In this document: positions 2,791-60,598 of the stretch, piece by piece
Layout of the letters: each line of letters starts with the position of its first letter
How positions within the stretch are numbered: the stretch's first letter is position 1
Assembly (NCBI GenBank): GCA_020152595.1
Contig: JAIGNY010004477.1
Coordinates: 114,501 to 178,500, forward strand
Reading direction: 5' to 3'
Source of the DNA: Chiridota heheva
Taxonomy: Eukaryota; Echinodermata; Holothuroidea; Apodida; Chiridotidae
Length of the DNA stretch: 64,000 bases
Made by a program: the position numbers and the translations under genes
Notes under the pieces: generated by a model
What the model was told of the DNA's origin: nothing
Database searches by the model: none
What the model saw: the letters and a program-made list of their open reading frames with translations, nothing else

Positions 2791-3679
2791 CACACTGAAA
2801 ACAAATCATTGTGACTTACATGTGCTTGTAAATGTCTGAAAGTGAAATACAAATAAGTTAGGCCTAATGCATTTTACTGAAAATTAATACCAACTTTTAT
2901 TAATGGAAAATACGTATTTCGAATATCATTCAGGTGGCAAATCAGTTGCTCCACTATACTTTGTTCTATTCTACACCATTTTTGAGGTCGGAGTGACGTA
3001 ACCGTGTACGAGCACCGTACGATTTTGCTAAGTTAGAGGGAAAACTTTATCATTACAGTCAATAGCATATTTTTATGAATACTTTGTAACGCCTCAGCCA
3101 GTCAGCAAAAATTAATGGTACTCATATATGTTGTAAACTAGTATCTAATACACACCATATTTGAAGAAAAATAAATTATGTGCAGTATTTGTTAAAAATG
3201 ACAAAAAATAGATTTGTCTCCCATTGACTGCAATGATAACTGACTGTTTGTTTTTCCCTTTGACTGAAGTTTGAGATCGTCAAAAAAGCATTATTACGTC
3301 GCCGTGTACCACAACATTTCCGGATGTCCGACATCCAGAATCCTGCTATCTCTAATCGCCGTATTTCGCTAAATACTTCAAGAGGTTTCAATTTAATATT
3401 TTGAGGATTGTGAGGGCGTGATGTCACGACGAGCTGATTTCAAACTATTCTGCAAAATTTCATTTTTTTAAACGGAATAAGATCTAGTATCACTATTTCT
3501 GCACTATTTTGTTCCTCGTGATATCTTCTTGCACAGGCATGCAGACAAGGGGAAGGGGGTAAACAGGTTTGTCATTGCCATATATTGCACATAATTCTTT
3601 GCTCGCAAAACCGTCTTTCTCTGATATATAAAAAGGATTCGCCAACAAATATTTGGTAGATTCTCTCTCCCAAAACTGT
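2791..3679. other. No gene recognised
   Basis: I see no conserved coding frame, RNA gene or repeat terminus. The short ORFs on both strands show no domain. Confidence 0.5.
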
Positions 3680-3943
3680 TTTGGTTTGTTTGTTGGATAT
3701 GAGCTTAACGGCACTACGACAACGAGGGTCAAACTGTGCCTGAGAGACTAGATCATTCTAGAGGTAGGGAGGAAAGAAAACAGGGAGAGAATGAGAAAAA
3801 TACAAGAACTAAAACTCAGAAAGCTGGGACCGAGAGAAGAGATGCATGGGTGAAAATAAATAAAGTAGAGAGAGGAGGGTGGGAGAGGGGAAATAAATAT
3901 GGCTGTAGAGGGAGGGAGTGGAAGAGGAGGACTAAAACTGTTT
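3680..3943 (-). mobile_element. LINE 3'-end fragment (same family as 56.7-60.6 kb)
   Basis: The sequence matches the 3' untranslated end of the long LINE at 56,726. It has a CAAA-type tail at the low-coordinate side, then TTAACGGCACTACGACAACG and CTAGATCATTCTAGAGG, then the purine-rich stretch of the LINE 3' UTR. It is severely 5'-truncated and has no coding capacity. The ORF at 3736-3945 is an antisense artefact of this UTR. Confidence 0.85.
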
Positions 3944-11800: not shown

Positions 11801-13016
11801 TTCATGTTTTTGAGAGAGAAAAAATAATAATGCAGAAATGAATCTATAATAGTTCAAATTATACTTAAAAAATAAGTCACAGTGACTCACAAGGGTTTGC
11901 AAATATATAAACAGTGAAACTTTTCACAAGAAAATTGCTTGACACAGCACATACCAGTGACGTCACTTCCGCTTCCGTTTTTGATTGGCTTGTCGATGTT
12001 TGTACAAAAGGATCTGCCAATCAGAAACGTTGAATTGTGTTGCATGAAAATAGAAAAAATAACTCACCGAGACCGCATGAAATGAATTGTGCCGCCTCAT
12101 AGTAGCCAACTTCATTCGTAGAAAAACAAAATGGCTCCCCATTGGTGATGTATAACACTGTAACCGCAATGAACCCAAACGCGAAGCCCATGAAGGAAAA
12201 CACAATGATATTATAAGAAACTAGCTTCCAACAGCGCCCTCCCGGCCTTGAACGGAACAGCTCTTTCATCGAGGCGAACATTTCGGCGGGATTAAAATCC
12301 GACTTGCCCTTTCTTTCGTCATCAAATATGACGGTTTCTGGCAACCAAATTAGATAAGTGATTAAAATTAGCATGCACGCTAAAATGAACACGTAGGGTC
12401 CCATGTATCCAAAGTTGCTGATTAAAAACCCCGTTCCAAGTTGACCTGGACCTCCGCCTGCCGTTGTCATGGTTTCGGCGATGACGATCCGTAGCATTCG
12501 ATTCGACAATGTCGTTGAATCAGCGACATAGGCGAATCCAGCTGACATGAATGTGATGAAGTCGCCGCTGAATCCAAGGATAAGACTCGCTAACGCTAAA
12601 AAGTGTAAGCTCAAGTTAAATTGAATCACGAACATGTTTATTAAAGAATATAAAGTCAAACCCACGGTAGTTACGATCAAAGGAAAACGGCGACCTCTCT
12701 CGTCGCTAACGTGACCGTAATAGTTCGATGAAATAAACGCTGGCGCCGAAAGTGCCAACGCCAGATACATTGACCAGTAGGCAGTCTTAGTGTTAATATC
12801 ATGCACGGTAGGATATAATGGATTTGATTTATTTACATGGCAATCTGCATCGCCGGAAGCATCTGGTATATGAGCCTCCAGCATAAAACGATGTTTGAGG
12901 TATTCTGTTCTTAGTGGCAGCGTGATTCCATAAGCAACCATAAAAATAAAGAGGGCAGGCTCCACTTTAAAGTTTGAACACAACTTCTGATTCTTTTGTT
13001 CGTTCTGCGACGTCAT
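8698..13016 (-). CDS. SLC46/PCFT-like major facilitator transporter (four coding exons)
   Basis: Four minus-strand exons (13,016-12,068; 11,258-11,127; 9,856-9,773; 8,854-8,698) join with GT-AG introns in compatible phase to about 440 residues, the usual SLC46 length. The first TM follows an EPALFIFMVAYG segment. The MFS loop-2/3 motif reads GHVSDERGRR. The SLC46-specific stretch RSRMSKLVGPDEQG crosses the exon 3/4 junction. SLC46 members are plasma- or lysosomal-membrane carriers; the proton-coupled folate transporter is the best known. The substrate cannot be assigned from sequence, and I cannot choose among SLC46A1, A2 and A3. Start: the only upstream in-frame ATG that gives the family N terminus (MTSQNEQ). 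The C terminus is uncertain: the last codon can be read as TAA or as a GTAAGT donor. Confidence 0.9.
9090..9470. repeat. Short tandem repeats in intron 3 of the transporter
   Basis: GATACCTGCAGTATGAA recurs about every 35-40 bp at 9,140-9,240. CTACACTACGAAAATG recurs at 9,305 and 9,390. A C-rich patch follows at 9,460-9,480. No coding signal. Confidence 0.65.
9773..9856 (-). CDS. SLC46-like transporter, exon 3
   Basis: 84 bp between a TTTCTAG acceptor and a GTTTGT donor. It encodes VTILGVFRMLCVP then RSRMSKLVGPDEQ, the highly conserved SLC46 cytosolic loop between late TM helices. It has two bases, 27 codons and one base, so it joins both neighbours in frame. It is too short to stand out as an ORF, and was found by motif and phase. 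Confidence 0.88.
10085..10200. repeat. Dispersed repeat, second copy at 25.0 kb
   Basis: A short segment around ATGCCCTTGT, a T-rich middle, GCAAGGGGGCACGTATACC and TTCGCAAT aligns with 25,015-25,110. Unclassified, diverged and without clear ends. Confidence 0.5.
10330..10690 (-). repeat. Family C interspersed repeat, copy 1
   Basis: About 360 bp that matches 29,490-29,850 in opposite orientation across its whole length. Shared words include TAACACGGATGAGTGA, GGAATGGCAGATAAACAATC and CACTCAGGTGTCGGGTG. Both strands keep overlapping ORFs open, but the ORF peptides differ in frame between copies and show no domain. It is probably a non-autonomous element and sits in intron 2 of the transporter. 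Confidence 0.75.
11127..11258 (-). CDS. SLC46-like transporter, exon 2
   Basis: 132 bp. The acceptor TTGCATTCAG precedes it and the donor GTAAGT follows. The G left from exon 1 plus GC makes Gly, giving ISCGLG then MLLGGLLMPLC. It encodes one or two TM helices in the second MFS half. The next phase (one base, G) fits exon 3. A decayed partial copy of this exon and its acceptor sits 70-170 bp upstream at 11,331-11,432. Confidence 0.88.
11331..11432 (-). pseudogene. Decayed partial copy of transporter exon 2 with its acceptor
   Basis: The sequence aligns with the start of exon 2 and the bases just upstream. It includes an intact-looking acceptor (TATCCAG) and a frame-shifted echo of MSDFAMMHLSTG, here MSEFAMHNASVN because of a short insertion near ATGCATAATGC. 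Only the first half of the exon is represented. It would break the frame if spliced in. Origin by local tandem duplication over the intron-exon boundary is inferred. Confidence 0.8.
12068..13016 (-). CDS. SLC46-like transporter, exon 1
   Basis: 949 bp, 316 codons plus one base, ending in the donor GTGAGTT. It carries the N terminus and most of the first nine or so TM helices. TM1 (FIFMVAYGITLPL) is followed by a long extracellular loop with cysteines and an N-glycosylation sequon (NKS). Then comes TM2 (LALALSAPAFISS), the GHVSDERGRR loop, and a central cytosolic linker rich in charged residues (FDDERKGKSDFNPAEM). The large first exon resembles the single big exon of vertebrate SLC46 genes. 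The ORF runs on 15 codons into the intron, but the phase of exon 2 fixes the donor at 12,067. Confidence 0.92.
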
Positions 13017-35800: not shown

Positions 35801-38800
35801 ATCCGCAACATTGGCATTGAGGAAGGGCTCTTATTAATCCAACTAACTGAAATTCATCCCGATTGAAGAACCCACCCCGATTGAAGAACCCACCCCGATT
35901 GAAGAACCCACCCGATTGAAGAACCCACTATGGTCATTCATATTCATGAGCACACGCATGAGTTTAAAGTGGTATGTCATGCACAACATACTTTTGTTTA
36001 ACGAGCAAACTTTCTCATATATGCTTACAGTGTACACACGTTGTACGCATTGTGTCCCGTACAATAATATTAGTTTGTTTATGTTCAAATCCAAGTTACC
36101 CAATGAAGCATTTCTTGTTTATTCTACTTACTCCCTGTCATAAATGAGTCTGACCTGCATGATATGCGACAAAACCTTTGACCCATTCAGGGTGTTTCTG
36201 ACATGGATAATCCATCATGGAATAACCAATGGCAATGAAGCATTTTTTGCTCACTGTCATAAATTGTCATAAATGAGTCTCACCTGCGTGATATGCGACA
36301 GAGCCTTTGACCCATCCAGGGTGCTTCTTACAAGGATAATCCCTCCTGGCTAATCCAATAGCGATGAAGCACTTCTTGCCAGGGTTTACGATCTCCAATT
36401 CAAAGTAGTGATTGGTTGGTGTGAGAGGCCGCCGAGCCTGAGCCAGACCAACATCTTCTATTCCAAACCCGTTACCAGTGTAAGACAGAATCTATATTGT
36501 GCAACAATGGCTTAAAATATTCATGAGGTGTTACATATACATAAGATATTAAATATTCATGAAGTACTACATATTCATGAGGTATTTCATATGATTCATT
36601 ATCAGTATATTCATGAGCATCTATGTTTATTTTTTGCAATGTGATTGGACGAGAGGAGAGTGTACATTATCCTGTGACAACAGACGTTTTCAGATTGATG
36701 TTCAACTTTTTCCTTCCTTCCTTCATCTAGTCTCTTCAGGCCTCCTGGCCCATAAGGCTGCAGTGCACTCTCTTCACTGGACTCTGTTATTTGCAACTTG
36801 TCTGGCTTCTGTCCATGAGCTCCATCCCATCACTTTCCTCTCCTTCTCAACTGTCCTTCTTCAGGTCGTTCTAGGACGACCAACTTTCCTTCTCCCCTCT
36901 GGTTTCCACATCATAGCTGTCACACAGTGCTTAATAATGCTCATGCGCATCACATGACCAATCCACCTCCACCTTCTCCTATTTACTTCAGTGCTGATTT
37001 TGTCATGTTTAATGACTCTCAGTATTTCCGATCGTTAGATATTACATATGGCCATCTGATTTTCAAAATTCTCCTGTAGCATTTGAACATAAATGTATCC
37101 ATAACTCACAACCATACGAAAGTACAGACTTAACAAGAGAGTTGAACAGTCGTATTTTTGTATATATTGAGAAAGTGCTTGAGTTCCATAACTTATTTAA
37201 CTTCATATATGTTACTCTACTTCTACTTTTTCATAGGGAAGTTACTTTTCTCATTCAATTTTGAGGCTTAAATCTAATTAAATTTCAAAACTTTTAACGG
37301 AAAATATTGCAACTGTTGACTTATTTCTACTTAATTTTAGAATGAAAGATGTGCAAACACAAATAAGACTTCATTGAAGATGTACCGTGTAGAAACAATC
37401 TAAACTTCTAAAGAATTAGGAAATGTAAATATTGAACACTTCATGTTTTTCCAATTGGAATCAATTTAGCCGCTGTACATTACTAAGTGGGGGTGAGGGT
37501 AACATTACTAAGTGGGGGTGAGGGTGTAAAGGGGGGTGGAAGAAGTCACTCCTTTGATTGCAGAAAGTATAAAAACCACCAAGCCTATTGGTCAGTTACA
37601 TTCAAGATGTTAATGAAGGATTGTATGGCTCTATCTACATACTCCTACGCTGTACACTTATAAATAAAAAAAGATGAAAAATAATACATATTCATGAGAT
37701 ACTTTATGTTCATGAGGTACTTTATATTCATGAGGTACTTCATATTCATGAGGTACTTTATATTCATGAGGTACTTCATATTCATAAGGTACCTGTTGTC
37801 GTAATGTGATGTCATACAGTCAGTCTCACTCATATCATCTTCCACATAAAAATTTAAAGATATTTGACACTAGAACTAGAATTTAAAAAAATGAAAGATA
37901 ATACATATTCATGAGGTACTTCATATTCATAAGGTACCTGTTGTCGTAATGTAATGTCATACGGTCTCACTCATATCATCTTCCACATATAAAAATTTCA
38001 AGATATCTGACACTAGAACTGAGTTATTGCATATTCATGAGGCACCTTTAACTATGTAATGAGACATCATCTTCAAAAAAAAAAAACTGTTGTTGGTACT
38101 GAGTTAAAGCTACTATACATCCATAAATCACTAAATATTCATGATGCAATACATATTCATGAGGTACCTGTCCTTGTAAGGAGATGTCATGCAGTCTCGC
38201 CCAATCGTCTTCCCCGGAATCATCAACCATCATATCTTCTTCCTGGTCAGTCCAGGTTGACCTTCCAAAAACTTTGACCCCCTGTCTACCTTTGTTGATG
38301 CTGACTGCGGGACAGAGACCACTGGGGGGTATGGTAATCTCTCTCCTGACCACCTGCAAACAAAAATAAGAGTCATCACCACCAATATCATTTTAAAATA
38401 TCTTCTGGCATTGACCCTACTGCAAGGTACCAGGTCTCTGGAGGAAGACAAGAGAGACAGACACAGTCAGGGGTGAAAACCACAACATCAATGATGTTGA
38501 AGCTTAACATTTTTTTGATGTGATGTATGTAAGGGGTCTTTGAAACATGTTTTCTCTCTAATCTATTTTAATCCTCTTCAGCAGGTTTTCCAGCTTGTTG
38601 TTAGTGTTAATTCTCATCCATAAGTGGGATGAGGGCGGTGGGGGTGCTGCTGAGCATGAATTTGGGGGTGGTGGGTGGGTGGATGGATGGGCCAAAAGCA
38701 GCAGTCTAAGAGTGAGGCATTATTAACCAACATAAGGTGAAATGTTTTATTTTGTCCCCTTTTGCAGGCAAATATTTCTTTAAAAATCAATACACATTTA

Positions 38801-41800
38801 TAAAATTAATGAAAAATGTGTAATTAGTTTGTTTTGTATAATTTGAAAAAAAATAGAGTCGAAAAAATAGTAGACCATGGCACCACCAATGGTCCCAGAA
38901 ATTTGATCAACTCTCCAGGAAGAGAAAGAAGAGCAAAAGAAAAGAAAGGAAAAAGGGGAAGAAAGAAAAGGAAAGGAAAGAAAAGGCGAAGAAGAACGAA
39001 AGATAAAAAGAAACAAGAAAAAACAATTTTGTTATATTAAAAATACATTTTTTGAAGACTTTCTGTGGTCCCATCAAGTCAAATATTTCTTGCACCCCAG
39101 GATCAAGGAGAAGGTGGAAAGATTACATCAAATTATTAGCTAGGTTAGAGAAGGAAAAAAATTGGCCGAAAAACATCAAAATTTGGCATTTTTTTGGGGG
39201 GGTAATATTACCCTTTTTTGGTATTTTTCCAAAAATAAATCCCCTCTTTAAAAATAAAAATATATATATTACATAATGGGAAGGAAAAAAAAAAAAATTG
39301 GCCGAAAAACATCAAAATTTGGCATTTTTTCTGCCAAATTTGGGTATTCTTTAGTATTTTTCTACTAAAATAAATCCCCTCTTTAAAAATAAAAATATAT
39401 ATATTACATAATGGGAAAAATAAAAAAAACAATAGGGCACATCTACAGACCATGAAGATTCTGTGTACCAAATATTAAGCAAAATCATACTAAGCCTCCC
39501 CCACTAAGCATATTTAATGAAATTCAACAATTTTTACATCATGAACATGTACACCTCAGCTAACATCATCATTATACCAAATATGAAACAAAACAGATAT
39601 GCGATTGTTACAATATGAACATTTTAAGATTTGTACATTAAGCTCTGCCAACTAATTAATTTGCATGACATCACAATCAAAAACAATAAGGCACATCTAC
39701 AGACAATGGGCTGTCTGTGTCCCACATACGACATGAATCCAATGTATTGTTCTTGAGATATCGTGTTTACGAGCTGACGACTACACACACACTAGTCTAT
39801 GGGCCAATATATCGAAACCATCCCCCCCCTCCCTCCCCTGAGGATTTTCATCCACTACACTTTTTAGTTAGTCTGGACCCTCAGCAATCATTTTCTGCTT
39901 GTTTGCCATTAAACTAATGGTGGGTGTGAGCACCAGGGCGTTGTCATGGCAACGAAGTGAAAAAAAATGGAATTTAAGGAAATGACATATATTTGTAACT
40001 AAACAACATTAAAACACATATATGTTTAATTAGGTATATATATTTAAGGCTGCCATATTGGTTGTAATCAAGATCTAGGTCATTTGAGGTCACAATCATG
40101 CCTTATCATGACCGTTGCCATGGCAACTCGGTGACAAAAAGCTTGAATTTGATAGAAAATGTCATATCTTTGAAACTTCACAGCATAAAAACACATTCCA
40201 GTGTCTAAGTATATATATTTGAAACTGTCCATTAGATTGCAATCAAGATCTGGGTCTTTTAAGGTCACGGTCATGCCCAATCAGGACAATTGTCATGCCA
40301 ATGCCGTGATAAAAAAATGAAAAAATAGGGAAAAATTGTCATATATTTTTAAGTAAACAATGCTAGTGTATAGGCATATAGGGATGTAGTGTAAGGTCAC
40401 AATAATGCCCAATCATAAAAGTTGCCATGATAACTGTGTACAAAAATTTGAAGTTGGTCAATTTGGAAATGTCATATCCCCGGTCTTCTCTTAGTTGTAA
40501 TACGCTACAATATAATATAAAATCACAATATAACTATATATGTATAGGCCTGTATAGATTTTAGATTAGCCGGTTGATTGCAATCAATATCTGGGTCCTT
40601 AAATACAGTCATGCTTAATCGCAATGCCTAAAGGAATGTTCATTTACATCAAATTGTCTTACAGTATTCTACAAACCATTATTATATTTGTAACATACCT
40701 TAATGTGTTACTTAAATACATGCATGTTTTTGGTTACATACTGACACGACTGAGAAGACCAAATGCTGATCTGTAACTTCACCGAAAACTGGGGTCCTAA
40801 GGAAAGCATATTAAGGTGTTCTAGTGATTTTCACGCCAATTCTGCTTTTCCAAAAATTGTCTACCACAAACAATCTTAATTAAAAGATGTTGAAAAAAGC
40901 CACAAAGATGGCAGAAAGCTTAATTTTTAATTTCTGTATGCTGCATACTACTTTCCAAAACATATGAAATGGTATTCCACATGAAGTCAATTCTCTTATA
41001 ATTCATATAAGTCATCATCATCCTCCTCATCATCAAACATATCTTCTTGCATGTTTTAGTAGTCAGCTTCAGTATCATCTTCTTCATGATCCTGCTCCAA
41101 TACTAAATCAATCAGTTCCTTTGGTAGCATTTCATCTTCTGTCCATTGGTACTCCAATTTGTCTCCCCGTAGAACCCATCCTTGACCATCGTCGGGCTTT
41201 GGCAATTTCCGATATGCAAATCAGCTTGATTCCATATGAGAGCCTGATAATTGGCACGTACAACATGCATCCTTAAGGAGAATTTGCAGGGTGGAAGCAA
41301 ACTTAGGTCAATGCCACTTTCACTGGACAGTAGCTGGTTCTTTGGTGTGTTACGTGTCATGAACATGGTATACCGCAGCTTGTTGATGTCCTTGACTCCT
41401 GACTTTGCCCCATATAAAAGACATGCGAATGCTTCTAGATCATCAAACATTCCTGCATTGAGAGTAGAGCTTGTACCCAAACCTGTAAAGACAGGAATAT
41501 ATTGCTTTTTTTTTTTTGCAGCACACGCAGGGGTCCCACCTTGCCTTTACGAACAAATGAACTAATAGTATCACAGCCAGTGAAAGTGGAAGTGAAAGCA
41601 ATGCATTGCAAAGATTGTTGCCAATGCCCCAGACTATTTTCCCATCTTGCCACAAAACCCATGTCTATATGTAAATTGAACAATTGCACCACCCCTAAAA
41701 TAAGATACACTAGCTCATGCTTACCTATAGATAGCCAGCTCATGCATGCCGAGTAAAACTCCACCTATGGTACTCTGCCAAGTTGCGACTGAAGCCAATA

Positions 41801-44800
41801 ATTCCTGGACCATGCTCACTGGCATGACGGTTATAAGCCAACGAACCCCCCTTTCTACTTAGATGTAGAAAACTTAGCCTCTCCTATGCTTTTAGAGTCC
41901 TCTCCAACACTCGGAACCCTGTTTACAACCTCATTAGGTACCCCTATTTCTCCACCCTCTTTGATAGGACTAAAACCCTATCCCTTCCCTTCAGCTTACA
42001 CCTTAAATCATACCTCTTCCATCTCGGCATCAACCCGCCACCTTCTCCTGGCCCACTTTTCCTCCATGGGCCACCCCCCTCCCTTCTGTCCACCTGGGCC
42101 TCTCCACTCATCACAAAACTCAAACCCACCCTAACCTCTTCATCAATCTCCACAACCAAATCAAAGACCAACTCTCAATTACACCTCCATCTATACTGAT
42201 GGCTCCAAGGAAGGCAACAAGACAGCTGCTGCTGCCATCATCCAAGACATCACCCTCAGTAGCAGACTTCCCAACTACTCATCCATCTTTTCAGCTGAGG
42301 CTAAGGCCATTCTCCTCGCCCTCAACTTTATTGAGTACTCTCCAATTAGCCACTTTGTCATTTTTTCCAACTCAAAGGCTGTTCTTACTTCTTTACTCAA
42401 TCTTAGATGGGATAACCTCACATGCCACCTCCTCATCTGGAAACTCCTTTCTCCCACCCTCTGCAGGAGAAGTATTCTTTTCTTCTGGATACCCAACCAT
42501 GTTGGCATCCCTGGCAATGACAGGGCTGATGCAGCCGCTAAGTTGTCCCTCAACCTCCTCCCTACCCTACCCCTTTTCCCAAAACCCTCTCTGACATCAA
42601 ACCGCTTATCGCTTCCCTTGTTCGTGACCGCTGGCAAACCTCATAGAACTCCCAAATTGATAACAAACTCCATGTCATTCAGCCCACAATTCCGATCAAA
42701 TCCACCATCTACAACCTCTCTCGTATCGACAACGTTCATATTACCCGTCTTAGAATTTGTCACACCCACCTCACTCACTCCTACCTCCTTATTGGCTTCC
42801 CCAACCCCTCTGCAACAATTGCCATTGCACCCTCACAATTCATCATGTTCTCCTTGCTTGCCCCCTGTACAAACTTCCCAGAGCTTCCCTCGCTCCCCAC
42901 AACTCAATTGCTGAGTTCTTCCAAAAAAATCCTCCGGATAAAATTATCTCCTTCTTTCATCATGCTTCCCTTTACAACCATATTTAATTCTCCTCTTCCA
43001 CCCCTCTCTACTTTGCTTTTGTTTTAACCATGCACCTCCCCTCTCGATCACAGCTTTCTGACCTTTTGTTCTTGAATTTCTCTCATTCTCCCTCTGTTTC
43101 CTTTCCTTCCTACCTCTAGAATGATCTGACCTCTCAGGAACAATTTGACCCTCGTTGTCGTGGTGCCATTGAGCCCTCATCAAACAAACAAACAAACTGT
43201 TTTATTGTTATGTCCACAGCATTGCGAGAGTTAGGAACTGCAGAGCGATTCACACTCATTCCTTTCTTTTTAAGTAGCTCCATTGCAGGTTGAGAAGTGT
43301 GTTTAAGTATAGTGATGTATACCTTGTATAGGTTGGCTTCTCTTGACTAAAGAAAAGAGGGCGCATTCATCTAGACAGGCCATGTGCAAGGTGATGTCAT
43401 TGATCTTTGTCGCCCTCAAGAACGCATCAGGAGCCATGCCTTATCCATGTAACCTAGCCAGAATTGTGCCGTTTTGCCCTTTTCTCCAGCACACACCTTC
43501 GCTTTGTACCCATCATACTTCTGCATCCATTCCTTCCATTTGAAGTTTTGCTTGACAGCGGACAAGTGCTCAGAATTTGGTGTTTTTGCCAGAACTGACA
43601 TCAGCTTCATTTCCTGCTCACCGATGACTAATCCATCTTCATCTTGAAATGAAGCCCACAATAGCCGTTCTAGAGCTTCCATCGATGTTCTGATAACATA
43701 CCTGGCCCTGTTGTAGTGTTTTCCATTCATGACTTTTTCGATGGAACCACTTGCACACACTGCAGATTCAACTTGCACTTCCACAAATCCACTCCCTTTC
43801 ATATATACTTTCCCAATGCACCGATGTATGCACACGCCATGTCGAATGCCCCCAGTCGAATGATGACATTGCAAAATCGATCTGCATACGACCACAATAT
43901 TCCATAGGCCTTCTTAGCAGCAGCCAGATGAAACGTATCTGGTATCTGGTACCCAGTCTGAGAGGTGATTTGAGCAGTGACGCATGACGTCATCAAGGGG
44001 CCATATGTATTATGAATTAATGTTATGGCATTTTCTCAAATTCATTTGTTTATCTTGGCGTTGCCATAGCAACAGCCAGTGGCGGGTGTGGGATTTCAAA
44101 TTAGGGGAGGTGGAGGGGGTGTTAACACCCAATTTACATAATACTAACATTCATGACTGAGGGGCAAAAGGTACAATTTTCATTAATGGGAGGGGCGAAC
44201 AACACTAACAAAAATGAATGGGGAGACTAAACCCATGCCCCCCCCCTCTCCCTCCAAAACCCCGCTAGTGGCAAAAGTCCCAATTAAAGGTATAACTTTG
44301 ACCGTAAATGACCCAGATCTTGATTGCAACCAACCAGCAGCTTCAAATCTATACAAAAAAAAAACATTTTTTCTCAAATTCATTTCTTCATCATGGCCTT
44401 GCCATATCAAGGTCCTTAAAGACATGAACACGACCTCAAATGACTTAAACCTTGATAGCGATCAACTGGGCAGCAACAAATATATATACCTGAACACTTA
44501 AAGTGTGCTGATATGTTATCCAGTTACAAAGATATGCCATTTTCTCAAAATTCCAGTTTCTCATTTAGACGTTGCCATGACAACGCCCTGGCGCTCACAC
44601 CCACCATTAGTTTAATGGCAAACAAGCAGAAAATGATTGCTGAGGGTCCAGACTAACTTAAAAGTGTAGTGGATGAAAATCCCTAAGGAAGGGGGAGGAG
44701 GGTCTACGGTTGGCCCACCGACTACACATACATACACATGCATACATACATACACCATCATGACCGCGTAGGTTCCTGATGCTATCGCATAGGAACCAAA

Positions 44801-47800
44801 AATAATGTAAAATGATAATCGAAAAACGCATGGTAAACTTATTTTATTAGACTGTGATTTTTTTTATATTGAGCTATTTTAGCTGTTAAGCACTGATGCG
44901 GAAGAAAATTCACAACCAGTTTTTACTGCTGATAAACTCGCAAAACGCACACTTTTATAATCAAATTCATAACTAGCATTGATTCACGTTCTTACCACTT
45001 TCCCACCAATGGTAAATGACATTGGGCATTTTCTCTCTCTGCCTGCTGAGGGAGGATCCATCTTGTCGAAATGCAAGACCACCCCCACTCTGTCCGACGA
45101 GGGACTCCAGAGTGGTGAGGGAGTGAAGAACCCTTCAAAGTAGCTGTTGGTAAAGCCAGAGTTGGAATTAATAATGAAATTTTCACGGTTCTGAATAAAG
45201 ATATCGAAAATTTTCCCATGAAAAATTGTGATAGAAATAATATTAATGTAGTGATTACATCTTTATACCCTTCCCTCTTTTGGCATTTAATGTACTTTTC
45301 ATCGCAAAATTACACGATGAACATTTTTAGAGCACATATTTACCACATACAGTGTTGCATACTCAAGAAATCTAAAAATAATAAAACAAGAAAGCAATCC
45401 ACAGAGTTGCTGATCTCATCGTACAGCATAGTGTACAGCATAGTGGGGAAAATAGCTAACAGGGTCACTATAGCTCTGTGACTTTTAATGGATTGCACTG
45501 CCCATGCAAGCTCGAGTTCAAGCATATCTTGAGACAGGCTTGGCTTTCTTTCTTTAGGCATGTTGATGGATTGCACTGCCCATGCAAGCTTGAGTTCAAG
45601 CATATCTTGAGACAGGCTTGGCTATCTTTCTTTAGGCATGTTGATGGATTGCACTGCCCATGCAAGCTTCGAGTTCAAGCATATCTTGAGACAGGCTGGC
45701 TATCTTTCTTTAGGCATTTTGATGGATTGCACTGCCATGCAATGCTTGAGTTCAAGCATATCTTGAGACAGGCTTGGCTTTCTTTCTTTAGGCATGTTGA
45801 TGGATTGCACTGCCCATGCAAGCTCGAGTACAAGCATATCTTGAGACAGGCTTGGCTTTCTTTCTCTAGGCATGTTGATGGATTGCACTGTCCATGCAAG
45901 TTCGAGTTCAAGCATATCTTGAGACAGGCTTGGCTATCTTTCTCTAGGCATGTTGATGGATTGCACTGTCCATGCAAGCTCGAGTTCAAGCATATCTTGA
46001 GACAGGCTTGGCTATCTTTCTCTAGGCATGTTGATGGATTGCACTGCCCATGTAAGCTCGAGTTCAAGCATATCTTGAGACAGGCTTGGCTTTCTTTCTC
46101 TAGGCATGTTGATGGATTGCACTGCCCATGCAAGCTCGAGTTCAAGCATATCTTGAGACAGGCTTGGCTTTCTTTCTCTAGGCATGTTGATGGATTGCAC
46201 TGCCCATGCAAGCTTGAGTTCAAGCATATCTTGAGACAGGCTTGGCTATCTTTCTCTAGGCATGTTGATGAATTGCACTGTCCATGCAAGCTCGAGTACA
46301 AGCATATCTTGAGACAGGCTTGGCTATCTTTCCTTAGGCATATTGATGAATTGTACTACCCATGGGAGTACAAACAGACCTTTGACATATTGACCCTAGA
46401 GTCCACAGGACACATTTATGTACCAAAGTATCATAGTACACCATAGGGTCGGTACAGGTCTTGTACTTTTCGTGTTTAAAATGCTGCAAAAATGTACAAA
46501 TTAGCACATAATTACCCCCTAAAACCACATATTTGACCTCTGACCATGACCCTAAACACTGAAATAACTTATAATTTTGTACATTTATCGTACCCTACTG
46601 CATGACACTATTCATGCTCACGTCACTCTTACCATTCCATAACTATAGGGGGAAATGGTGAAAAGGTCAATAGCTCTGTGACCTTTTAATCTCAGAATCT
46701 ACGGGACACAAATTCATATACCAAGGTATCATGGTACAACATAAGGTTGATATAGGTCTTGTACTTTCTGAGCTAAAAATGGTGCAAAAATGTACAAATT
46801 AGTTCATAATTACCCTTAAAATCACATATTTGACCTCTGACTACTGACCCTAATCACTGAAATAACCTCTGAATTTTTTCATTTATCACACTTCCTACTG
46901 TATGACACCACTCATGCTCACGTCACACTTACCATTCCATAACTATAAGAGGAAAATGGTGAAAAAGGTCAATAGCTCTGTGACCTTTAACCTAGGAAGG
47001 GTATTTATAATATAACACCTGAAGAAAGTTCAAGGAAAAATAATTCAAATAGTAAAAAAAATGAAATAAACTTTCTTTAAAATACATTAACAATTGTTAA
47101 CAATGTGAGGATGAGGACGCCAACTTTCCATAGTAGACTTACTACACCAGTCATTTCTACACAGATAAGACAAGAGCTTTAAACTTGATTATATTCTTAA
47201 CGGAATATGATTTTTGAATGCATTCTTCACCATTTTGTTTCTTTTGAAGTCCTCTTTCATATAAGATGGACATGCTTGACCCCTGAACTAATCCTTTAAT
47301 GAAAAACAAAGTTCTTCCCGTGAATTCCCATTTTTCCTGAGCATGTTATAACCGCCAGAGCTGTAGACTTTTTCCAGGTCTGGGTGTTTCAGCTAACGTC
47401 ATGAGGTCACATGACTTTGTTAACATTGCCATTTTGTCAGGCAAAAGCACTGCTGTCGGTTCTACACTTAATTAAACTTACATACTGTACTGTACGTTTG
47501 CATGTTGTTATATAAGATTGTTTTTGCAAGATAATTATGCTAGAATCTTGCTGTGCCGTTGGGTGCACTACTAGATGTGTGCAGGGGAAAAAAAAGACAT
47601 TTAATAAATTTCCAACTGATCTTGATCGACGTTCGAAGTGTGTTTCTGCTGTACAACGCAACGGCTTCTACCTACAGTAGACCTTACACACTAGGATTTG
47701 CAGCGAGCACTTTATATCAGGTACAGTATGTAGGCTTAGTATAACGAAGAATCAGCTGGCGTTAACGTTAAAGTTTCTCTTTGTATACCCGGTGAAAATA

Positions 47801-53402: not shown

Positions 53403-54832
53403 TTTACATATTGTAGGCCCTACAAAAACTGTTACATAGGCCCTATATTAAAACTGTTATATAGGCCCTACATAAAAATTGTAACATAGGCTCTACTGTA
53501 TATCAAAACTGTTACATAGGTCCTACATAAAAATTGTTACATAGGCTCTACTGTATATCAAAACTGTTACATAGGCCCTACATACAAATTGTTACATAGG
53601 CTCTACTGTATATCAAAACTGTTACATAGGCCCTACATAAATACTGTTACATAGGCCCTACATAAATACTGTTACATAGGCCCTACATAAAACTGTTACA
53701 TAGGCCCTACATAAAAACTGTTACATAGGCCCTACATAAAAACTGTTACATAGGCCCTACATAAAAACTGTTACATAGGCCCTACATAAAAACTGTTACA
53801 TAGGCCCTACATAAAAACTGTTACATAGGCCCTACATAAAAACTGTTACATAGGCCCTACCTAAAAACTGTTACATAGGCCCTACATAAAAACTGTTACA
53901 TAGGCCCTACATAAAAACTGTTACATAGGCCCTACATAAAAATTGTTACATAGGCCCTACCTAAAAACTGTTACATAGGCCCTACATAAAATCTGTTACA
54001 TAGGCCCTACATAAAATCTGTTACATAGGCCCTATATAAGAAGTGTTACATAGGCCCTACGTAAAAACTGTTACATAGGCTTTACAGAAAAATTGTTACA
54101 TAAGCGCTACATAAAACCTGTTACATGGGCCCCACATAAAAACTGTTACATAGGCCCTACATAAAAACTGTTACATAGGCCCTACGTAAAAACTCTTACA
54201 TAGGCCCTACATAAAAACTCTTACATTGGCCCTACATACAAACTGTTACATAGGCCCTACATAAAAACTGTTACATAGGCCCTACATAAATACTATTACA
54301 TAGGCCCTACATAAAAACTATTACATAGGCCCTACTTAAAAACTGTTACATAGGCCCTTCATAAAAACTGTTACATAGGTCCTACATAAAATCTGTTACA
54401 TAGGCCCTACATAAAATCTGTTGCATAGGCCCTACATAAAATCTGTAACATAGGCCCTACATAAAATCTGTTGCATAGGCCCTACTGTACATACTGTAAA
54501 AACTGTAACATAGGCCCTACTGTACATAAAAACTGTTACATAGGCCCTACATAAAATCTGTTACATAGGCTCTACATAAAAACTGTTACATACCTGTAGG
54601 CCCTACATAAAAACTGTTACATAGGCCCTACATAACAACTCTTACATAGGCCCCACAGAAAAACTGTTACATAAGCCTTACATAAAAAATGTTACATAAG
54701 CCCTACATTAAAAATGTTACATAGGCCCCACATAAAAACTCTTACATAGGCCCTACAAAAAAAAACCTGTTACATAGGTCCTACATAAAAACTGTCACAT
54801 AGGCCCACAGAAAAACTGCTACATGTTACTGA
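53403..54832. repeat. 25-bp satellite, about 57 copies
   Basis: Unit TAGGCCCTACATAAAAACTG plus TTACA. The central part is highly homogeneous; the left edge alternates with longer CTCTACTGTATATCAAAACTG units, and the right part is more diverse. It is the longest tandem array in the window. Confidence 0.95.
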
Positions 54833-56260: not shown

Positions 56261-56725
56261 TTTAATTTTATCGAAGTATTTACTGGATTACTTTTCATTC
56301 CGTAAAAACCATCTGACGAGCTCTTCAAAGTATGGTCCACGTGCAAAACACTGCTATCAGGGCTATAACATTTTAGCAGGGGTAGGGAATATGTTTTGGA
56401 TCATTTGAGGAAAACAAATTCACAATACTTATAAAGTATAAACATTTCTTGATGTTTTATTTGTTTTTACACACCGATTTTATAATAAAACAATTTAGAA
56501 ATTCCATGAACCAAAAAAAATGTTGTCAGCAAAAAATCTGCCTGCAGTTTAGTGGAACATCCTAAAAGTTATTTGCGGGCGTTCTAATTGATCACAAACA
56601 TGTGGTGATTAAGGAACATGGCAACCAAATCATTGAATCAGAGAACTTTATCCCATCGTGGTGCTAAACAGGTAAAGATTTAGGAAAAGTTTTTTTTTTA
56701 AAGTGTAATATTTGTGTTAGTCTAA
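56261..56725. other. No gene recognised
   Basis: AT-rich, no domain or repeat terminus named. Confidence 0.5.
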
Positions 56726-56935
56726 TAGCTTGTTTGTTTGTTTGATGAGGTCTTAACGGCACCACGACAATGAAGGTCAAATTGGTCCTGAGAGGTCAGA
56801 TCATTTTAGAGGTAGTAAGGAAAGAGACCAGGGGGAGAATGAGAGAAATTCAAGAACGAAAGCCAGAAAGCTGTGATCGAGAGAGGAGGTGCATGGGTAA
56901 AACAAAAACAAAGTAGAGGGGTTGAAAGAGGAGAA

Positions 56936-57745
56936 TTAAATATGGTTGTAGAGGGATGCATGCTGAAGGAAGGAGATTATTTTATCTGGAGGATTTTTCT
57001 GGAAGAACTCAGCAATTGAGTTGTGGGGAGCGAGGGAAGCTCTGGGAAGGTTGTACAGGGGGCAAGCAAGGAGAACGTGTTGGATTGTGAGGATGCAGTG
57101 GCAATTGTTACAGAGGGGTTGGAGGGAACCAATAAGGAGATGGGAGTGAGTGAGGTGGGTGTGACCAATTTTAAGACGGGTAATATGAACGTTGTCGATA
57201 CGAGAAAGGTTGTTGATGGTGGATTTGATCGGGATTGTGGGCTGGGGCTGGATGACATGGAGTTTGTTATCAATTTGGGGGTTCCATAAGGTTTGCCAGC
57301 AGTCACGAACAAGAGAAGTGATAAGCGGTTTGATGTCAGAAAGGGTTTTGGGAAAAGGGGAAGGGAGGAGGTTAAGGGCAAGCTTAGCGGCTGTATCAGC
57401 CCTGTCATTGCCAGGGATGCCAACATGGCTGGGTATCCAGAAGAAAAGAACACTTTTCCTGCAGAGGGTGGGAGAAAAGAGTTTCCGGAGGAGGAGGTGG
57501 CTGGTCAGGTTATTCCATTTAAGATTGAGTAATGAAGTAAGAACAGCCTTTGAGTCAGAGAAAATGGCAAAGTGACTAAGAGGAGAGTACTCAATAAAGT
57601 TGAGGGCAAGGAGAATAGCCTTAGCCTCGGCTGAAAAGATGGATGAGTGGTCAGGAAGTCTGCTACTGAGGGTGATGTCTTGGATGATGGCAGCAGCAGC
57701 TGTCTTGTTGCCTTCCTTGGAGCCATCAGTATAGATGGAGGTGTA
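56936..57745 (-). pseudogene. LINE RNase H domain and C-terminal zinc knuckle
   Basis: IYTDGSKEGNKTAAAAII starts the domain. The catalytic set is complete: Asp (YTDGS), Glu (SAEAKAIL), Asp (FSDSKAVL), Asp (GNDRADTAAK), and IPSHVGIPGN is intact. The C-terminal part reads LKIGHTHLTHSHLLIG, CNNCHCILTIQHVLLACPLY, a CCHC-type knuckle, and stops at TAA (56,938-56,936). Of the whole LINE this domain is the best preserved, with only linker indels. Confidence 0.88.
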
Positions 57746-58488
57746 ATTTGAGAGTTGGTCTTTGATTTGGTTGTGGAGATTGATGAAGAGGTTAGGGTGA
57801 GTTTGAGTTTTGTTATAAGTGGAGAGGTCTAGGTGGACAGAAGGGAGGGGGATGGCCCAAGGAGGAAAAGTGGGCCAGGAGTAGGTGCCGAGAGTGGCAG
57901 GGTTGATGCCAAGTTGAAAGAGGTCTGATTTATTGTGTAAGCTGAAGGGAGGCGATAGGGTTTTAGTCCTATCAAAGAGGGAGGAGAAATTGGGGTACCT
58001 AATGAGGTTGTAAACAGGGTTCTGGGTGTTGGTGAGGACTCCAAAAGCATAGGAGAGGCTAAGCTTTTTACATCTAAGTAGAAAGGGGGGTTCGTTGTTT
58101 CAACATGAACGCTAGTGATTGGGGAGGTCCTGTAGGCTCCTAGACACAGCCTGAGGGCTTCATTTTGCATGGTGTTAATGTGGTTGAGGTATGAGTTGTG
58201 AGCGACACAGTAGACAATATTGCCATAGTCAAGCTTGGCATGAATGGTGAGCCTGAAAATTTTGAGGAGAGCATAGCGGTTCGCTCCCCAAGTAGTGTTG
58301 GAGAGCAGTCGGAGGATGTTGAGGGAGCTATTGCATTTTAGTTTCAGGTTGGTGATGTGTGGCTTGTAGGTGAGCTTGGGGTCTAGAGTTAGACCAAGGA
58401 ACTTTGTGTTTTCAACTTTAGGGATGCGATTGACATTGAGCACAAAGTTCAGGTTGGGGTGGAGGTTGTTGAAATGACAAAAGTGCAT
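57746..58488 (-). pseudogene. LINE RT thumb and linker region
   Basis: A continuous frame from RIPKVENTKFLGLTLDPKL through LLSNTTWGANRYALLKIF, YGNIVYCVAHNS and NEALRLCLGAYRTSP, typical of I-type LINE C-terminal RT regions between the active site and RNase H. The frame is lost in the proline/leucine-rich linker before RNase H. Confidence 0.85.
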
Positions 58489-58489
58489 G

Positions 58490-59946
58490 CAGAATGTCTT
58501 GTCTTTAGAGAATTTAAAACCGTTATTGTTGTTCCAGACTTGCAGCTGGTTGAGGCCGGTTGGAGCCTATTTTCAACAATAGGAAAGCTAGGGGAGGAGT
58601 AGAAGATGGTGAAGTCCACGTAGAGGGTACGTTTGATGTTGGGGCCAAGGTTATTCGTGATGTCATTAATGCTCAGGTCGAAGAGAGTGGGGGAGAGGAT
58701 GCTGCCTTAGGGGACGCCCTCTTCTTGGGGGTACGGGTTGGAGAGGGTGTGGCCAATACGAACTTGGAACTGCCTGGGTGAGAGGAAGTTTTGAATACAG
58801 ATGGGGAGGTGGCCTCTGAGGCCGATGGTGTGAAGTTTTCAGGTAGTGTATTTCCAAGTAGTGTCGAAAGCTTTCTCGAGGTCAAAAAATATGGCAATGA
58901 GGTGTTCCTTTTTGCAAAGGATTCCCGGATAGCGGTGTCGAGCATAATTAACTGGTCTAGGGTATTGCGACGTTTTGGAAGCCGCTTTGGTGAGAGAGAG
59001 GATTCTGTTGGTCTCGAGGAACCAGTTTAGTCTCTGATTAATGATCTTTTCCATAATTTTACAGAGACAGCAAGTAAGGGCGATGGGTCGGTAGCTGGTG
59101 GGGTCGGTACCATCCTTCCCCGGTTTAAGGACGGGGATGACTATAGCTGTCCTCCAGATAGGGGGAAAGGAGTGTGAGGACCAAATGTGGTTGAAGATGG
59201 TGAGTAGGGTAGTGGTGGCCTTGATGGGGAGGTGTTTCAGAAACTGATAGGGGATGTTATCTGGGCCCTTGGAGGTGCAGCCAGCGTCGTTGATGGCTTG
59301 GTTTAATTCAGAAAGGGTGAGAGGGGTGTTGTAGCTTTCGGAGTTGTCGGAGGGAAAAGTGATTCTCTGGGCTTCATCGCAAGCTTTTTTGATTTTGAAA
59401 GCATTGGAGTAGTTGGTCGAGGACGAGATGTTGCTGAAAGAGGCGGCGAGGTGGTCAACGATGTCCTTTTTTGCAGTGAGAAGGTCTCCATTCCAAGAGA
59501 GATGGGAGATGGAAGATTTGCCTTCTCTGCCGTGGAAGCTGTTAACCATTCTCCAAATCTTCTTAGTGGGGGTGTTGGTGGGGAGAGAAGAGATAAAGTT
59601 GTTGTTCCAAGTGTTGGTTTTACTGCCCTTGATAGTGCGTCTGGCCTTGGCACGGCTGATGCGAAAGAGGTTAAGGTTATGGGTGGTCGGGTTAGTTTTA
59701 AAGTTCCAGAGGGCTCTTTTCCTGTTCTTGATGGCGGTTTTGCAGTCATCCGAGAACCAGGCATTGGGGGGATGATTTGGGGGTTTGGAGGTTTTGGGAA
59801 TTGAGCAGGTGGCGATGTTGATAAGGATATTACTGAAGTTAGACATGGGATCCTCATCCTCGAGGAGATGGGGGGGAGAGGTGTGAGTCACAGAGGGTTT
59901 CAAAAAGGGGCCAGTCAGCCTTGTTGAGGTTCCAATTGGGGTGTGC
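58490..59946 (-). pseudogene. LINE reverse transcriptase domain
   Basis: In order: WFSDDCKTAIKNRKRALW, KGPDNIPYQFLKHLP, TSYRPIALTCCLCKIMEKI, RNTLDQLIMLD (different frame), FFDLEKAFDTTW (motif A), then VP(stop)GSILSPTLF, LSINDI and LYVDFTIF. Motif B carries TAA in place of the Gln codon of VPQGS. The YVDD box lacks three bases, leaving YVDF, so one of two catalytic Asp residues is gone. At least three frameshifts occur. Confidence 0.9.
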
Positions 59947-60598
59947 TCAGTGGGATTTGAAGATTGGAGTGTATAAGAAGAGGGTAATGATCACTACCAC
60001 AGAGGTCAGCAGTGACTCTCCAACTAAAATCAGGGAGGAGCTTAGGGGAACAGATAGACAGGTGAGAGAGCCTGTGGCAGGATGGAGGTAGGTCAGGGAG
60101 TTAGTGTTCAGTAAGGACAGGCTGTGCTGAAGAGCGTTTTCGATGAGCTTGCCTCTAGGGGTGGTGGTATTAGAGCCCCACAGAGGGTTGTAAGCGTTGA
60201 AATCACCAAGAAGGATGAAGGGGATGGGAAGCTGAGAGATGAGGTTGTTAAGGCTGGTTGGTTGAATGTTGGTGTTGGGAGGGAGATAGATATTGCAGAG
60301 AGTGAAAGTTTTGTGGAGGGAGATAGAAATACAGATGGCCTGAAGGTCGGTGTGCACACGAACAGGGCTGTGTGGGATATCGTGTCTAACAAGAATGGAG
60401 ACGCCACCACAGGCCCTGTCAGCATCCACTTGATGTTTGTGATAGCAAGCGAAGTTGTTGAGGGAGTAATGTTCTGTGGTTTTCAAGAAAGTTTCTTGTA
60501 GGCAGAAAACGACTGGGTTGAAGGTGGAGGCCAGAAGGTCAATTTCTTCAGAATTGGCCTTAAGGCTCCTAATGTTCCATTGTATGATGTTGATAGCC
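59947..60598 (-). pseudogene. LINE apurinic-like endonuclease domain
   Basis: The frame opens at the truncation point with IIQWNIRSLKANSEEID, then VVFCLQETFL, CGGVSILVRHDIPHSP, CNIYLPPN and FILLGDFNAYNPLWGS. The catalytic Asn (QWN), Glu (QET) and Asp/Asn (GDFN) are present. A frameshift near 60,000-60,060 moves the last motif (CGSDHYPLLI, the SDHxP box) into another frame. Sequence N-terminal to the endonuclease, including any ORF1, is missing. Confidence 0.88.

Follow-up and report, generated by a model that had tools for sequence, protein, structure and literature searches.

The AcademX lineage of the Academ superfamily of DNA transposons was reportedly set out by Kapitonov and Jurka in 2010 and by Kojima in 2020. 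A cysteine-rich zinc finger reportedly belongs to the original description of Academ. The two lineages that matter most for comparison differ in the target-site duplications that they make, which according to PMC10045372 are 3–4 bp for AcademX and 9–10 bp for AcademH, with the lengths being related to their nuclease and helicase. Academ elements form a large group in bivalves, where the curated elements average 5,565 bp (PMC10294476). Here, we describe an element of 4,932 bp that lies in a stretch of 64,000 nt (“the window”, to which all window coordinates are relative) of contig JAIGNY010004477.1 of Chiridota heheva, a genome of ~1.1 Gb. The element encloses a gene that we refer to by its TGCDT motif. 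We consider it quite probable, all things combined, that this dead, non-autonomous element belongs to a family of cut-and-paste transposons that is AcademX-like and whose TGCDT protein is of the transposase type.

The window element and its copies across the genome

The element occupies positions 39,793–44,724 as one inserted unit, on the minus strand by the orientation of its gene, with its ends and length taken from an alignment of copies. The termini are exact, with TAGTC at 39,793 and GACTA finishing at 44,724. A first-pass annotation of the same DNA had proposed a putative transposon at 39,795–44,725, bounds that prove correct to within 2 bp, and had described near-identical inverted blocks with internally repetitive arms, which are indeed present. 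The terminal inverted repeat on the 3′ side of the gene (39,793–40,162, plus strand) begins 5′-TAGTCTATGGGCCAA..., and its counterpart on the 5′ side of the gene (44,364–44,724, minus strand) begins 5′-TAGTCGGTGGGCCAA.... The core of the inverted arms, 39,822–39,954 against 44,570–44,702, is 133 nt long and 93% complementary; weaker homology lengthens the arms to ~370 bp, with 79% agreement between 39,822–40,162 and 44,364–44,702 in the window alignment. The left arm contains internal direct repeats with a spacing of ~175 bp. These subterminal repeats (39,939–40,603; repeat families D1, D2, D3, D5 and D6) are candidate binding sites for a transposase; the other arm has subterminal direct repeats of its own (44,019–44,583; families D4 and D12). 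The element is bordered by CAC at 39,790–39,792 and again at 44,725–44,727, a target-site duplication that is weak when taken alone, given its CA-rich surroundings.

Evidence for transposition came from an alignment of 20 further copies of the gene with their flanks, all from the same genome and picked as the best matches to the window’s gene part. Similarity among the copies stops at TAGTC or a one-base variant of it, and the sequence outside differs from copy to copy. Fourteen copies have both ends, and each of these shows an exact 3-bp duplication that does not extend to 4 bp; when the ends of different copies were paired as a control, 3-bp agreement was seen in 20 of 182 pairings. A single empty site was recovered, and it is a paralogous repeat, not an allele: the joined flanks of copy L044 align over 247 columns, at 86% identity, to a repeat in copy L042 that lacks the element. 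The 14 full elements are 93.4–96.8% identical. Terminal inverted repeats, a fixed 3-bp duplication and an empty site elsewhere are features of a cut-and-paste DNA transposon with terminal inverted repeats, and the window element is a copy of such a transposon. The same data bear on the proposal that the locus is a segmental repeat or part of a host gene family, with the inverted arms duplicated along with it. In the close family the gene has many copies, most of them degenerate, as this proposal would have it, but 14 exact duplications out of 14 in differing flanks, together with the empty site, are unexpected from segmental duplication; they refute the proposal for the close family and leave it with a negligible probability overall. 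TTA or TAA accounts for seven of the duplications, so a target preference may exist; the remaining seven are GTG, TGT, AGA, CCA, ACT and, twice, TTG.

Additional evidence came from searches of the whole genome. These searches scored the best candidates of each kind (40 of 131 for arms, 150 of 470 for first parts of the gene, 149 of 681 for middle parts and 150 of 684 for TGCDT parts), so that copy numbers are lower bounds. The arrangement is not due to chance, as this arm search, with a best E of 2.4e-51 among the 40 scored candidates, and the search for terminal patterns described below both show. With all 40 scored arms counted and one gene place allowed per element (70 places), the first part of the gene lies inward within 6 kb for 36 arms. 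The median distance is 709 bp (range 650–1,692) for the 24 arms on the 5′ side of the gene, and 3,477 bp (3,019–3,798) for the 12 arms on its 3′ side. The four arms without a listed inward first part are those of C938, C1170, C2869 and C2997:459; the last part of the gene is listed inward of the C1170 arm, and the C2997:459 arm runs off its contig. A search for the terminal pattern with at most 2 mismatches found 56 five-prime and 44 three-prime ends, compared with none for a backwards control. Convergent ends formed 29 pairs within 15 kb, 20 of which span 4.49–4.99 kb.

The first-pass annotation had suggested that an inverted-repeat element carries the gene about, to be checked by aligning the flanks of its genome copies in search of the same arms and of target-site duplications; both were found, with the exact duplication in 14 of 14 copies that have both ends, and this mode of travel accounts for the number of close-family copies. 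Neither of the two patterns that it had named as counter-evidence was seen among the scored arms and the close copies examined. Arms did not occur often without the gene at random distances, as the 36 of 40 scored arms show, and close copies of the gene did not lack arms, the 5′ arm being recognizable in 19 of the 20 others. In the twentieth, L053, the 3′ arm is present, and the matching 5′ terminus at C2596:1321823, ~3.5 kb beyond the examined stretch, is taken as L053’s own 5′ end.

The TGCDT gene and its role in the element

The gene runs along the minus strand in three parts. The first part (43,202–44,035), which is frameshifted, extends from GKHYNRA to DITIxQ; the homologous frame of L053 matches the Pfam family DUF6589, a level of similarity that the window’s own frames fall short of alone. 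The middle part (41,635–41,838) carries NRHA..GxIGFSRN and YxRW. The last part (41,047–41,634), also frameshifted, carries TGCDTISxFVRKGK, LRMHxxRANYQ and an acidic tail, with TGCDT itself at ~41,567–41,581. All of the motifs listed for this gene in the first-pass annotation were found on this strand in the order given there.

L053, the least damaged copy, is itself broken by frameshifts. Its coding sequence falls into a first exon, a middle exon that matched nothing, and a third region from EEADT to the end. Near the 5′ end, at ~400–2,000, L053 is apparently interrupted by another retroelement with an A-rich tail. The first exon matches DUF6589 (PF20231) with E 1.2e-7 and 31.2 bits, above the curated cut-off of 27, but the match covers only profile positions 134–360 of 410, in a family without an assigned function. 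A DUF6589 match at E≤0.001 was obtained in 4 of 12 copies. In the 15 of 29 L053 frames that were scanned against Pfam, no coding region other than this exon has a convincing match, and neither a transposase domain nor a helicase domain was found.

Evidence that the parts belong together came from divergent copies in the genome, which are 27–47% identical to the queries and often have long open frames. The collinearity counts are drawn solely from divergent places (58 for the first part, 108 for the middle part, 99 for the TGCDT part and all 31 for TCR), with the close family and the weakest rows, below C1694, excluded. The first part is followed by the middle part in 42 ordered pairs (median gap 382 bp), and the middle part by the TGCDT part in 58 (median gap 324 bp), with no reversed pairs and no opposite-strand pairs. 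The TCR/CXC domain has 31 matches in the genome, 6 of which lie directly downstream of divergent middle exons; on C47, an open frame of 768 residues is reported for each of three matches, to the middle part, to the TGCDT part and to TCR. The parts form one conserved protein, of which the window carries a broken version. DUF6589 was also matched by two open frames, of 1,774 and 1,831 residues (C1581:927313-928386 and C3232:753606-754685), outside the listed places of the TGCDT gene; these matches perhaps represent another lineage of the same type of element. TGCDT proteins presumably recur, unnamed, in the gene sets of invertebrates, in agreement with the first-pass annotation. A literature search, in which TGCDT was not used as a lone term, did not find TGCDT in the papers examined; it found no papers for DUF6589 or GCDTTS, and PF20231 gave nothing related, as judged by title.

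The first-pass annotation had called the gene the transposon’s cargo, a description that is not borne out. Since the TGCDT gene provides the only convincing Pfam match among the scanned coding regions of the least damaged copy, it is more likely to be the element’s own mobility gene, encoding a protein of the transposase type. A captured passenger, in a transposon moved by an unrelated transposase, would be consistent with the spread of gene-dead copies, for whose movement the local gene is not needed, and with the failure to identify transposase catalytic residues. However, a transposase domain that would mark a second gene was not found in the 15 scanned L053 frames, and the TGCDT gene is high-copy and collinear in the divergent genome copies as well, as it would be for a transposase family, making capture an improbable explanation. 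These data suggest that the TGCDT family is mobile-element machinery rather than a passenger.

Stepwise breakage of the gene

The window copy has two lesions, both overlooked in the first-pass annotation. The first is a 3′ fragment of a long interspersed nuclear element (LINE), 1.36 kb in length (41,839–43,201, plus strand), which lies antisense inside the gene and splits it between DITIxQ and NRHA. The fragment contains ribonuclease H (RNase H; E 7.5e-10) and is 90% identical to the LINE at window positions 56,724–58,097. The second is an internal deletion of ~1.97 kb before TGCDT, which was recognized by comparison with L053, L055 and L058 and has its joint at 41,634–41,635; the middle exon and the EEADT/SPDTD part are gone.

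The family gene was broken stepwise, by the LINE insertion and then by the deletion. In a tally of 21 copies that includes the window’s, 17 have both the LINE and the deletion, 2 have the LINE only (L055 and L058), 1 has neither (L053), and L051 was not scorable. The share of 17 in 21 is biased toward the window’s subfamily by the choice of copies for their similarity to the window’s gene part, and it is within this window-similar set that copies with both lesions outnumber the other forms. The deletion is associated with the seventh terminal base. Of the three-prime ends with A at this position, 32 of 35 lack a listed middle exon, whereas 8 of the 9 with G have one (Fisher p 8e-6, using 27 close-family middle-exon places). 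The sole G end without a middle exon, on C106, has the EEADT part, and one of the nine G ends also differs at the sixth base. Such an association is expected if the subfamily descends from a single copy with the deletion. The middle exon is present in four elements of 6.9–7.1 kb, among them L058, in which the LINE was seen; assuming that the other three also carry the LINE, a parent without it would be ~5.6 kb long.

The window copy is a dead, non-autonomous derivative, and since 17 of the 21 inspected copies share both lesions, it was the crippled form that multiplied. We propose that it did so with a protein supplied from other loci, the simplest source being undeleted siblings (~5.6 kb without the LINE) that encode the full TGCDT protein. 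The supplied protein, composed of the DUF6589 part, the middle part, XPG/FEN-like acidic motifs and, in some relatives, TCR/CXC, would be of the transposase type and would perhaps bind the subterminal repeats. The series from no lesion through LINE only to LINE with deletion illustrates clearly how a non-autonomous derivative can outgrow its parent. As TGCDT copies travel as transposons, with forms that range from less damaged to crippled, such genes should be annotated as mobile elements.

Several other features were seen in the window. The minus strand at 56,724–60,597 holds a LINE whose successive frames encode endonuclease, reverse transcriptase and RNase H domains. At 45,488–46,364, ~760 bp away from the transposon, a 78-bp unit is tandemly repeated (11.2 copies, 95%). 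As the unit length is a multiple of three, the array has open frames of 328 residues on one strand and 226 residues on the opposite one; it is not a likely gene. A second array, of ~56 copies of a 25-bp unit, is found at 53,414–54,824. An exon-like open frame on the minus strand at 12,021–13,040 matches a Major Facilitator transporter (E 2.2e-12) and is probably a host gene.

Comparison with known nucleases and transposon superfamilies

Following the DUF6589 part, the TGCDT protein has the acidic motifs VLDE, VTDT, EEADT, SPDTD and TGCDT. By eye, their order and approximate context are like those that we take to characterize the FEN-1/XPG nucleases (D, D, ExxD, DxD, and GCDT versus GSDY/GTDY), but homology is statistically unsupported in the tests made. 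An XPG/FEN-like nuclease in the TGCDT protein is best treated as a lead and not as a result. These tests were limited by the close copies being too alike for a sensitive profile.

A number of observations weigh against a transposase of this kind. An intact gene is absent from every close-family copy examined, no autonomous partner was found among these copies, and neither a DDE (aspartate-aspartate-glutamate) triad nor other transposase catalytic residues were identified in the TGCDT protein. Pfam XPG_I has 5 matches over the genome, none at the listed TGCDT places. Comparison with 49 archaeal FEN-1 proteins gave a probability of 0.3% with hhalign, and when three hidden Markov models of these proteins were run against 2,000 shuffles, 401 to 1,043 shuffles equalled the three spliced copies where those scored. 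In a profile alignment against 300 shuffles, 42 shuffles were as good. Searches of Pfam, PHROGs, NCBIfam and PDB gave nothing in favour of a nuclease, and AlphaFold models, whose input alignments consisted of near-identical copies, were unusable (mean predicted local distance difference test score 42.5 for the DUF6589 part and 30.4 for the TGCDT part). With two queries, no relative was found in viral contigs, and a literature search combining XPG with transposon terms found no papers. It is unlikely, on balance, that the TGCDT family provides the transposase for a superfamily not yet described, or for AcademX reinterpreted, in which an XPG/FEN-like flap nuclease with DUF6589 (and TCR/CXC in some lineages) would cut DNA in place of a classical RNase-H DDE core. 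If it were, a protein family of invertebrates that is unnamed and presumably common, as the first-pass annotation also held, would be mobile-element machinery. DUF6589, a Pfam family without a function, is now linked to a transposon.

Duplications of 3 bp are also made by Harbinger, which prefers TWA, and by EnSpm. Zator makes them as well, according to PMC10045372. Membership of one of these other superfamilies (Harbinger, EnSpm/CACTA or Zator) would fit the duplication length and, for Harbinger, the 7 of 14 duplications that are TTA or TAA. However, the other 7 targets are not TWA, the ends start with TAGTC and not CACTA, and no Pfam transposase family matched the scanned L053 frames; we regard such membership as very unlikely. 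AcademH shares a superfamily with the element only if the Academ placement is correct, and differs in its 9–10 bp duplications and its helicase, as given in PMC10045372, from the 3-bp duplications and the helicase-free scanned L053 frames found here, so that membership of AcademH was rejected. A bridge to AcademH through DUF6589 and a helicase was also dropped, as the listed matches include one Helicase_C match near a DUF6589 place and no DEAD match there; on C2067, Helicase_C lies at 37614-37940 (+), ~4 kb from a DUF6589 place at 41943-44080 (−).

The element is most likely AcademX-like, a placement that we favour over the others while regarding it as not proven. The comparison was made with AcademX as described, and it reveals a difference in that nuclease homology is undetectable, and no DDE core identified, in the element studied here. 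The cysteine-rich feature of Academ has a possible counterpart in the TCR/CXC domain downstream in the 6 divergent copies, a domain that was not found in a Pfam scan of the C-terminal frame of the window’s subfamily (L041). The placement follows from the fit of duplication length, inferred size and motif order. The duplications are 3 bp here and 3 or 4 bp in AcademX; the protein is long, with acidic motifs that by eye are nuclease-like; and the inferred full length of ~5.6 kb without the LINE resembles the mean of 5,565 bp given for curated bivalve Academ elements in PMC10294476.

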